Positions 5,323-60,963 of a DNA stretch of 64,000 nucleotides are shown piece after piece. The notes beneath the pieces are model-generated. The model had not been told where the DNA came from. It saw only the letters and a program-made list of their open reading frames with translations, and made no database searches. This DNA comes from Halorientalis salina (GTDB taxonomy: Archaea > Halobacteriota > Halobacteria > Halobacteriales > Haloarculaceae), in NCBI RefSeq assembly GCF_005049285.1, contig NZ_SOSC01000002.1:186001-250000 (forward strand), given 5' to 3'. A program made the position numbers and the translations under genes. Position 1 is the first letter of the stretch. The number at the start of each line of letters is the position of its first letter.

Positions 5323-6207
5323 TCACTCGGAGAGGAACGATACGATTTCTTCGCCCACCACCGCGGGCCGTTCACGGTGCATGAAGTGGCCCGCGTCCTG
5401 TATCTCGATCGCGCGACAGTCGGCAGCGAAGGCGTCACCCGCGGTCTCGAACGTTTCGGCACCGATACAGCCGTCGTCGGCACCGGCGACGACGAGTCCG
5501 GGAACCTCGATCCCCGGAATCTCGTCGGGGTCGGGGCGGCCGTTGCCGACCAGGTCGCGTACGACGGGGTTGACGAACTGTCGGTAGTACGACAGCGCCG
5601 CCTCGACGGTTCCGTCGGCGCGGAACGTGTCCTTGACTGCCTTGATGTGGTCCCGGTCGTAGTCCCAGCCAGGGCTCCAGAGGTTCCAGAGCACTTCGAT
5701 CAACGCGAAGTCCTCGCGTTCGAGCGTTCGCTCGGAGATGCCCGGCAGCTGGAAGAACCAGATGTACCAGCTCCGGAGGAACTGCCGCGGGTGGTCCCAG
5801 ATTTCGGCCGCGAATCGCGGCGGAACCGCCATCGTCGCGATCCGGTCGAACCGCTCGGGGTCGCGCCGAGCGGCCGCGTAGGCCGCGACGGCCCCCCAGT
5901 CGTGGCCCACCAGCACCGCGTCCTCGAAGTCGTCTTCCTCGACGAGCGCATCGGCGAGTGCGACGGCGTCGGCACCGAGCGCGCTCGCGTCGTACGCGTC
6001 GTCCGGGGCCGGTCCGGTCGGGCTGTAGCCGCGCATGTAGGGCGCGACGGCCGTGAACCCGGCGTCGGCGAGTCGGTCGAACAGCGGCTCGAAGGTCTGA
6101 GGTGCGTCCGGAAACCCGTGGAGACAGAGGGCGAGTCGGTCCCCGTCGCCCCGGGTGAGACACTCGAACTCCAGTCCGTTCGCCGTCACCTCGCGTCGGT
6201 CGGTCAT
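5323..6207 (-). CDS. Alpha/beta-hydrolase, epoxide-hydrolase/haloalkane-dehalogenase-like
   Basis: A 294-residue cytoplasmic protein of the alpha/beta-hydrolase fold. The oxyanion motif LHGFPD (about residue 28) and nucleophile elbow GHDWG (about 99-103) place an Asp as nucleophile, as in epoxide hydrolases and dehalogenases. A late Asp (VVAGADDGCI) and a His (QDAGHFMHRE) complete the triad. The cap region holds many aromatic residues. The natural substrate cannot be named from sequence. It lies next to a lipoprotein gene on the same strand, with no obvious operon. Confidence 0.88.
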   Translation of the reverse strand: MTDRREVTANGLEFECLTRGDGDRLALCLHGFPDAPQTFEPLFDRLADAGFTAVAPYMRGYSPTGPAPDDAYDASALGADAVALADALVEEDDFEDAVLVGHDWGAVAAYAAARRDPERFDRIATMAVPPRFAAEIWDHPRQFLRSWYIWFFQLPGISERTLEREDFALIEVLWNLWSPGWDYDRDHIKAVKDTFRADGTVEAALSYYRQFVNPVVRDLVGNGRPDPDEIPGIEVPGLVVAGADDGCIGAETFETAGDAFAADCRAIEIQDAGHFMHRERPAVVGEEIVSFLSE

Positions 6208-26637: not shown

Positions 26638-26930
26638 ACCTTTTACTTCGTCGGGTTCGAGTCGCGCCTCCGGCGCGCTCGAACCACTCCTCGCAAAACG
26701 TCCTCAGAAATCGAAGATTTCTGATGGGCTGTCCCCAGAACGGCTTCGCCGTTCTGGTGTGCATGAAAGACGCGGAGCGTCTTTCATACTGCACAAGAGC
26801 TTCGCTCTTGTGAACGTTCATGAAAACTGCTCCGACTCACTTCGTTCGTCGAAGTGAACCGGCGTCGTCACGAACGAAGTGGGTGACGGCTCGAAAGACG
26901 CAGCGTCTTTCGGCGGCCGACGGCCGCCGG
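26635..26930. repeat. Composite hairpin element type 2, copy C, packed with extra palindromes
   Basis: It starts at the phoU stop (TGAACCTTTTACTTCGTCGG) and holds a nested palindrome (26655-26684), then CCACTCCTCGCAAAACGT. Four 3-base-loop hairpins sit inside: 26704-26724, 26735-26757, 26763-26787 and 26792-26812, with arms of 9-11 bp. The backbone then resumes with AACGTTCATGAAAA and ends in GTGAACCGG. A fixed-core hairpin (26866-26888) and two more palindromes (26892-26912 and 26911-26929) follow. No gene lies in the 416 bases between phoU and radB. Confidence 0.85.
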
Positions 26931-59177: not shown

Positions 59178-59201
59178 CCGAGGGCAGTGAACTACCCCAC
59201 C

Positions 59202-60495
59202 CTACTCGCTCACCGCTGACGCGGTTCGCTCCTTGAGGGTGGGGCTTCCTGCTTCCACGACGCGCTTTGCAGATACAGGCGTATCCACAGGGAGCGCAGT
59301 CTCCACAGGCATTCCTTCGGAGTGTCCCACTCCTAACTGCTTGATACCGCGAGAAAGGATGTTCCACGCCGTTGCCAGAAATCTCCGATTTCTGGCTGCC
59401 CGCCAGACGCAGTCTGGCGACCGCGTTCACATCCCTGTCCGCCTCAAACCCGCAGGCGGGACAGGAGTGTTCACGGACCCACAGCGGCTTATCCGTCTTG
59501 ACGCCGCAGGACGCGCACTCTTTCGTCGTCCCACTCGGATTTACCGCTACGAAGTGTGTCCCCTCTCGCTCACACTTGTATTCGAGCAACGAGAGGAACG
59601 TTCGCCACGCAGCAGACGCGGTATTGCGACTGTTCGACGGTGATTCAAGCATTCCCTTCACGTTGAGGTCTTCGACCGTCACAAGGTCATACTCCCGAGC
59701 GTAGTAGTTCGAGAGTTTATGTAGGAAGTCGCGGCGCTTCCGTCGCAGGTCAGCGTGACACTCCGCGACTCGCCGCCGTTGCTTCTCGTAGTTGTTAGAC
59801 CCGTGTTGCTTGCGCGAGAGTTTCCGTTGCTCGCATTCCAATCGCTCCCGTTCAGCGGAGAGGTCAAGCGACCCGACCGCCGTGCCGTCGGTGTCGTGGG
59901 CGTACCTGAGTATCCCTACGTCAATGCCGACGCACTTATCGGGAGTCTCAGGCGGCTCAGGTGGTTCATAATCCATTTCGACGGCGAACGTGGCGAACCA
60001 CTCGCCCGTCGATTCCTTCTTGACCGTGACCTGCTTGAGCGTGGCGTCGTCGGGTATGGCGCGGTGGAGCCTTATCGGAATGTCCGCGAGTTTCGAGAGT
60101 GACAGCACAGTCTGACCGCCCTTCTTGTCGAGCTTGAAGCCAGACTGACTGTACGTGAAACTGCGGAACTCCCGTGGCCGCTTCCACTTGAGTTGGCCGA
60201 CGCCGTAACCGTTCTCCTTGAGTTTGGAGAGTCCTTTGAGGTTGTCAAACAGGCGTTCCACGACGGTTTGGAGAACCTTCGAGTACACGTCCGAGAGGGC
60301 GTCCCACCACTTCTTGAGGTCGGGAAGTTCCGACCGGAGGATGGTCATGGACGGCAGTTCTCCGTGTTCGTCTCGGTACTCGTTGAGGCGGTAGAGCGTG
60401 TGGTTGTAGAGTTGCCTACAAATGTCTCGGTGGCAGTCCAACTCCTCGCGGTGAGCATCGGACGGCTTGAGACGGTACTTGTAGGCGTAGTACAT
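59202..60495 (-). pseudogene. tnpB: tnpB, RNA-guided-nuclease family, frameshifted by a 52-bp palindromic insertion
   Basis: From the ATG at 60495. RuvC residues Asp192 (GIDVGI), Glu275 (TVEDLNV) and Asp353 (ADRDVNA) and zinc ligands Cys327/330/345/348 are present. Just after the DRDVNA motif, 52 bases (59369-59420) are inserted. Removing them gives NAAWNILSRG, then KQLGVGHSEGMPVETALPV and a stop at 59202, the usual haloarchaeal end. As it stands the frame runs on with unrelated residues to 58999, into the neighbouring gene. All active-site residues lie before the break, so partial activity cannot be excluded. Confidence 0.85.
59369..59420. repeat. 52-bp double-palindrome insertion inside tnpB
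   Basis: CCAGAAATC-TCC-GATTTCTGG (59375-59395) and CGCCAGAC-GCA-GTCTGGCG (59401-59419), joined by CTGCC. Arms are perfect, 9 and 8 bp. The first is nearly the same as a hairpin after phoU (26704-26724, TCAGAAATC/GATTTCTGA) with a different loop. The length, 52, is not divisible by three. Confidence 0.9.
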
Positions 60496-60648: not shown

Positions 60649-60717
60649 AATAGCTACGGTAGACATGGGCCTGTGGGTCTGCAACAGAACAGTGTATGGG
60701 AGACGATGACGGCGTTG

Positions 60718-60764
60718 ACGAATCGCTCCGCGATTCGTTCGCACACCAGAATCTTTGATTCTGG
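60718..60764. repeat. 3-base-loop palindromes in the 5' part of the TnpB element
   Basis: ACGAATCGC-TCC-GCGATTCGT (60718-60738) and CCAGAATC-TTT-GATTCTGG (60746-60764), with perfect 9- and 8-bp arms. Nearby GGGGACGCTGTATCCCC (60764-60780) is a further hairpin. Confidence 0.8.
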
Positions 60765-60963
60765 GGACGCTGTATCCCCGCCCTACTGCGCTACTCGGGC
60801 TTCGCCCTGCATTGCTCGTTGAGGACGGGGGCTTAGCGCCTATATTTCAGCTAAATTCGAGAGTTAGAGAGATTCAGTGAGGGATGACCGAGATTGCCCA
60901 ATTATCAAACCTAACAGATTGGGTGTGACTTTTTCATCAACCAAGTTCCAAAAGAGGGACACA

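Follow-up and report, generated by a model that had tools for sequence, protein, structure and literature searches.

What has broken the reading frame of a nuclease gene in the haloarchaeon Halorientalis salina, and how did the interrupting DNA arrive there? TnpB proteins are RNA-guided DNA nucleases carried on transposons and are the ancestors of Cas12. The gene in question is a tnpB of the IS200/IS605 family (IS1341-type) on a 64,000-nucleotide stretch of contig NZ_SOSC01000002.1 (positions 186,001 to 250,000), here called the window. Its frame opens at 60495 on the minus strand and is lost at 59420, where comparison with uninterrupted relatives identifies a 52-bp segment as an insertion that broke the gene by frameshift. 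By comparison of the same kind, the segment belongs to a family of very small mobile elements found across the class. The features concerned, in window numbering, are these:

59202..60495, minus strand: tnpB, frameshifted by the unit (paralogue alignment, Pfam, translation)
59369..59420, equivalently 59372-59423, minus strand: type I double-hairpin unit, 52 bp (empty-site comparison, joined-flank reading, type I survey)
59369-59371 and 59421-59423: trinucleotide CCG (CGG on the minus strand), shared between target and unit end
59374..59396, minus strand: hairpin A, GCCAGAAATC-GGA-GATTTCTGGC, a perfect 10-bp stem with a C-GGA-G loop on the minus strand (TCC on the plus strand)
59401..59419, minus strand: hairpin B, CGCCAGAC-TGC-GTCTGGCG, a perfect 8-bp stem with a C-GCA-G loop on the plus strand

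An initial sequence-only reading had proposed that inserted DNA, bounded to a few bases, interrupts tnpB and that deleting 52 bases restores the C-terminus and stop, all of which is borne out by relatives lacking exactly that segment. Three full-length tnpB paralogues in the same genome (L015, L016 and L017, with 85%, 72% and 72% DNA identity) pass through the site without it. Natronomonas sp. CBA1123 (L157) has the closest empty site, with the sequence ggatgttccacgCCGcgttcgc; the filled site in the window reads ggatgttccacgCCG, then the 52 bp ending in CCG, then cgttcac. The insert length by this comparison is 52 bp, and because CCG flanks the insert on both sides, its ends carry a 3-bp ambiguity (CCG/CGG). 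Joining the flanks without the 52 bp gives a TnpB of 413 residues, reading ...CGFEADRDVNAAWNILSRG...RTASAVSE before the stop; the uncut frame shifts after DRDVNA and extends to 498 residues. The joined product contains DVNAAWNIL, in which the RuvC-III motif DxNAA is present, and the insertion point lies a few residues past the RuvC-III aspartate (DVNA^A), which we take to be catalytic. Pfam families PF01385, PF07282 and PF12323 all score above cut-off on the window gene, marking it as a TnpB with OrfB_IS605, Cas12f1-like TNB and helix-turn-helix domains. The contrary case, in which all related tnpB genes carry the segment, was checked and is contradicted by the uninterrupted relatives and same-genome paralogues. 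Assembly or sequencing error was likewise ruled out, as the same units, mostly with perfect stems, recur in dozens of independent assemblies.

Both of the 3-base-loop palindromes described earlier in the insert are present with perfect stems. Folded as single-stranded DNA, the segment forms exactly hairpins A and B at -21.3 kcal/mol, compared with -10.15 +/- 1.99 kcal/mol for shuffled sequences (z -5.6). The reported likeness to a hairpin after phoU is also real, the hairpin at 26704-26724 having the same stem (CAGAAATC/GATTTCTG), and it exceeds chance: at up to 3 mismatches, hairpin A has 13 copies in the genome against 0 for a reversed-pattern control. The exact hairpin A core was not found in viral contigs, which offered no viral carrier. 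The phoU hairpin is the first part of a longer structure:

26704..26812, no strand assigned: array of four triloop hairpins, 109 bp, downstream of phoU

This array is probably two units head to head. Locus L150 holds a similar array of 115 bp (5567-5675).

Members of the family share an architecture of two hairpins, each with a perfect stem and a 3-nt loop that is mostly C-GNA-G, separated by a spacer of 3-8 nt and totalling 52-57 bp. DNA mini-hairpins with the C-GNA-G motif are unusually stable. The flanks of 74 hairpin arrays match an uninterrupted partner locus elsewhere, and 46 of these insertions, including one assembly-gap artefact (L133), were resolved to the base, with lengths clustering at 57, 55, 54 and 52 bp. 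That palindromes move as units, as first supposed, therefore holds for the pair with its spacer and fixed ends and fails for each palindrome alone. A single palindrome as the mobile unit was ruled out, given that the resolved boundaries, drawn for arrays of at least two hairpins, enclose at least a pair. Four types can be distinguished (the stroke precedes the first base of the unit):

Type I, that of the window: CGG/TC-hairpin B-GGGCA-hairpin A-NACGG
Type II: CG/TCC-[CCAGAA..TTCTGG]-TGTGCGA-[ACGA..TCGT]-NAACG
Type III, defined by eye: CA/TCA-..-TTAGCAG-..-CGACA, found in the right-end palindrome GCCCCA^CCCTC
Type IV: TCGTTCG..-GATNN-..CGAACGA, with no base shared with the target

Most type I units are preceded by CGG, end in CGG and measure exactly 52 bp. 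Among 65 strict type II units, CG precedes 64 and terminates all 65, and the length is 57 bp in 50 and 55 bp in 12. The type II signature occurs in 90 of 292 genomes of the class (43 of 77 genera) and type I in 25 of the 292 (20 genera), each with 0 control matches, and a scan of all GTDB contigs returned at least 117 stretches, nearly all haloarchaeal. The 163 arrays contain 395 hairpins, of which 387 close with a C-G pair and 255 carry a GNA or TNC loop (1/6 expected); among 115 hairpins matched by a query that fixed the stem but not the loop, 78 had loops of these two forms. Across 464 kb of the window genome, palindromes with stems of at least 8 number 87 for 3-nt loops versus 15-37 for every other loop length, an excess that applies to stretches picked around matches and is no genome average; the loop is C-GNA-G in 51 of the 87. 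In longer arrays, a second unit seems to have entered the first at its terminal CG. At one locus, in Halorhabdus amylolytica (L170), the usual left-end site is empty and the unit sits 20 bp further on.

Type I was found at 27 distinct sites, 14 of them in TnpB, and 13 of these 14 fall on three conserved positions:

ET^AALDIGAN, just before RuvC-I: 3 insertions
YSQSG^FELK: 4 insertions
RuvC-III DxNA^A: 6 insertions, namely the window, L226, L100 and L174, and in the opposite orientation L217 and L225

The target at the window insertion is CGG^C. TnpB-borne type I units are all 52 bp long except that of L231 (51 bp), and it is the 52-bp length that shifts the frame. About 10 of the remaining type I sites are, by inspection, near-terminal palindromes of the IS605/PATE type, for example CCCGG^CGTGAACGCCGGG. 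Copies of hairpin A lie within 300 bp of a TnpB or TnpA frame in 28 of 86 cases, as do 166 of 2320 points drawn at random from those loci, and sequence context suggests that further copies sit in remnants lacking tnpB. Each tnpB gene offers ~64 CGG/CCG sites, and the 14 insertions fall on 4 positions; were only 9 of the events independent, the probability of 4 sites or fewer would still be ~3e-4 or less. The clustering of type I in tnpB is far from random.

Repeated occupation of the same codons reflects mostly independent insertions, or in some cases precise losses, because interrupted TnpBs such as L100 and L150 are closer to uninterrupted ones than to interrupted ones outside their own lineage. 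The identity of L100 is 90.5% with an uninterrupted TnpB and 69% with the interrupted L174, and that of L150 is 87.5% with an uninterrupted TnpB and 52% with L228. L058 and L060 are each nearer to the uninterrupted L064 than to one another. The window TnpB has no detectable pairwise match to those of L100 and L174 and only weak partial similarity to those of L217 and L225.

By comparison, then, the segment is almost certainly a mobile unit with a CGG target. Alignment of filled and empty sites establishes precise insertion of paired hairpins, with fixed ends, target bases, recurrent sites and gene disruption. The best overall explanation, given a probability of about 55%, is a non-autonomous double-hairpin element, moved by a Y1 transposase, whose site-specific insertion at CGG^C struck the RuvC-III codons of tnpB. 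The enzymatic part of this proposal, in which a Y1 HUH transposase works on single-stranded DNA, stands on its own at slightly less than even odds. A Y1 HUH enzyme of the IS200/IS605 type would act in trans on single-stranded DNA, recognising the hairpins of the unit, cutting at the adjoining CGG or CG, and pasting the unit into DNA that is single-stranded or extrudes a hairpin. IS605-type elements would be favoured victims because they pass through a single-stranded stage and bind the Y1 enzyme. The DNA-type loops, the size of the hairpins, the lack of inversion between the ends and the connection with IS605 elements all suggest this route.

The genomic distribution of Y1 genes bears on the proposal in both directions. 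The window genome has 3 Y1 genes, each beside a tnpB-like reading frame as in IS605. Y1 is present in 78 of 90 genomes with type II and in 123 of 202 without (p = 4e-6), type II copy number increases with Y1 gene number, and at least two type II copies occur in 33 of 201 genomes with Y1 versus 0 of 91 without. Several observations nevertheless weigh against Y1-driven movement. The link is mostly explained by tnpB load, for once tnpB counts (at least ~21 per genome in the richest genomes) are taken into account, the partial rank correlation is 0.13 and the stratified permutation p is 0.19, which leaves only the presence of Y1 in every multi-copy genome. Moreover, 12 genomes have one type II unit but no Y1. 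The guide GT[AG]G was not found at the hairpin feet, which are TC, GGCA, TCC, TGTGCGA and TTAGCAG. Known IS605 insertion makes no target duplication, but the present units share 2-3 bp with the target, and one unit type inserts without a shared base. The mobility of the units, in addition, rests on the comparison of filled with empty sites and not on excision or single-stranded circles.

Two readings were discarded. The Y1 genes were rejected as proven mobilisers when their association with type II was lost on stratifying by tnpB number. A GNA strand bias was rejected as the sign of a single transferred strand, as type II has none (22 GNA and 17 TNC in one hairpin, 17 and 26 in the other). Loop orientation is fixed only in type I hairpin B, whose loop, read in unit orientation, is TNC in 25 of 27 units, and this may be due to descent.

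The direct CGG or CG flanks, which resemble short target duplications, raise the alternative of an unidentified transposase or integrase that moves the units as double-stranded DNA, duplicates 2-3 bp of target, and recognises the hairpins or the target context, with Y1 irrelevant. The recurring target context and the weak partial correlation with Y1 fit this account as well. It is nonetheless judged unlikely: single units lack a terminal inverted repeat, the flanking bases differ among types and are absent in one, and GNA triloops with perfect palindromes suggest a folded single strand. Less probable again is that the units no longer transpose, having been acquired long ago by IS605-type elements that carry them and having spread to homologous positions through gene conversion of tnpB. 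Such a history would account for identical sites that recur, such as the RuvC-III codons and GGGGATACAGCG^CCGTCATC upstream of tnpB. Against this, the TnpB lineages that carry type I at RuvC-III have diverged too far to exchange it by conversion, and the unit lies there in either orientation. Units are also found beyond tnpB, in near-terminal palindromes and elsewhere, and filled sites agree closely with empty ones in their flanks. Essentially unspecific insertion, concentrated in IS605 elements by selection against insertions elsewhere, is very improbable even though insertion sequences are dispensable DNA and some units lie in intergenic DNA, for within tnpB the insertions are confined to 4 positions, and such filtering could not select the same codon across unrelated TnpBs.

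With Y1-driven movement of a double-hairpin element retained as the preferred reading, the closest known system is SMR-A of Haloquadratum walsbyi (HqIRS42, HqIRS43 and HqIRS55), which was compared by description only and behaves the same while differing in size and ends. These ~110-bp repeats insert in near-terminal palindromes of IS605-type elements by a movement called enigmatic, have prominent inverted terminal repeats, and make no target duplication (Dyall-Smith et al., PMC3119063). Like the present units, they are short, mobile and free of a transposase, and prefer IS605-type transposons and PATEs, a preference matched by the type I sites in such palindromes and in tnpB; in H. walsbyi J07HQW1, units of the present family also sit in such near-terminal palindromes. 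In contrast to SMR-A, single units here measure 52-57 bp and their ends (TC...CGG; TCC...AACG) are not mutual inverted repeats. The 2-3 bp common to target and unit end represent either a duplication or a built-in end. Only four-hairpin arrays reach 109-115 bp, and by size these could be what SMR-A are. The present family is also found across the class and, unlike SMR-A, strikes conserved tnpB codons.

Resemblances extend to other palindromic elements. REP, BIME and REPIN sequences with TnpA-REP (RAYT) likewise form short palindrome doublets with many dispersed copies, DNA hairpins and presumed Y1 mobilisation in trans. The haloarchaeal units differ in having no GT[AG]G foot, in not being limited to intergenic DNA, and in their very short spacer and triloops. 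A REPIN-like haloarchaeal system, in which targeting set by the unit has evolved toward IS605 elements, including nuclease catalytic codons, so that double hairpins mobile as single-stranded DNA act as parasite or brake, is somewhat doubtful. In one survey, archaea had only subclass 1.1 Y1 enzymes, the IS200 transposases (PMC6006769). PATEs are also non-coding, with palindromes near both ends, and are related to single-stranded DNA transposition (PMC3119063). Their palindromes resemble IS605 ends, while the present hairpins differ from the palindromes they enter (e.g., CCCGGCGTGAACGCCGGG), PATE-like palindromes being among the targets. Double-hairpin elements of mitochondrial DNA also consist of two adjacent short hairpins and are seemingly mobile, but their sequences and genomes are unrelated and they have no link to IS605 or tnpB.

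Few known mobile DNA units would be as small as these, at ~52 bp. They partly answer a question open since 2011, namely what attacks haloarchaeal IS605-type elements and how, and with the unit delimited to its exact ends and its targets established, the responsible enzyme can be sought directly. Repeated hits on the same RuvC codons of unrelated TnpBs suggest a specificity that reaches into the conserved coding sequence of an RNA-guided nuclease. Caution is also warranted in annotation, where an insertion may lie behind a haloarchaeal tnpB pseudogene or what looks like an omegaRNA hairpin. The window insert lies ~180-235 nt upstream of the right end of its element, and in haloarchaea the omegaRNA overlaps with the 3' portion of tnpB (PMC12558985). 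Rfam omegaRNA families gave only sub-threshold chance matches over the insert. As a consequence of the insertion, the frameshift of tnpB at RuvC-III is more certain than the possible effect on the guide RNA that the initial reading raised.

The element in the window has the following further features:

59187..59244, minus strand: right end of the IS605-type element, boundary placed by paralogue divergence, with the conserved terminus TAGTTCAC
59195-59203 and 59236-59244: arms of the right-end palindrome, CCCCACCCT/AGGGTGGGG (alignment, inspection)
60715..60769, plus strand: a second double-hairpin unit, of type II, in the left-end region upstream of tnpB, with hairpins at 60718-60738 and 60746-60764

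The empty partner of this second unit is in Halobellus inordinatus (L139). The unit sits at the GGGGATACAGCG^CCGTCATC site, which is occupied by units in many genera. Its spacer and hairpin start, TGTGCGAACGA, as in type II generally, include TGCGAACG, an octamer that has been described in Halobacterium rRNA operons as a putative element for transcription start. A type II unit of 57 bp also occurs in the TnpB C-terminal tail of a tnpA-tnpB paralogue (L063:8547-8598; G000:C4:56547-56598), where the gene is still open because a unit of this length stays in frame. Hairpin pairs at L057:10475-10530, L061:9500-9550 and L062:9774-9826 lie inside larger repeats flanked by CCTTTTTCACCCA and GGATGTTTTTGC, which are perhaps terminators or another repeat family. 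At one left-end site (L125:3211-3255, L137:6953-6997, L180:7135-7179 and L193:1400-1444), the stems are the same and the loops vary among GAA, TTC, GGA and TCC, a pattern that flipping or re-templating of the hairpin heads would give.
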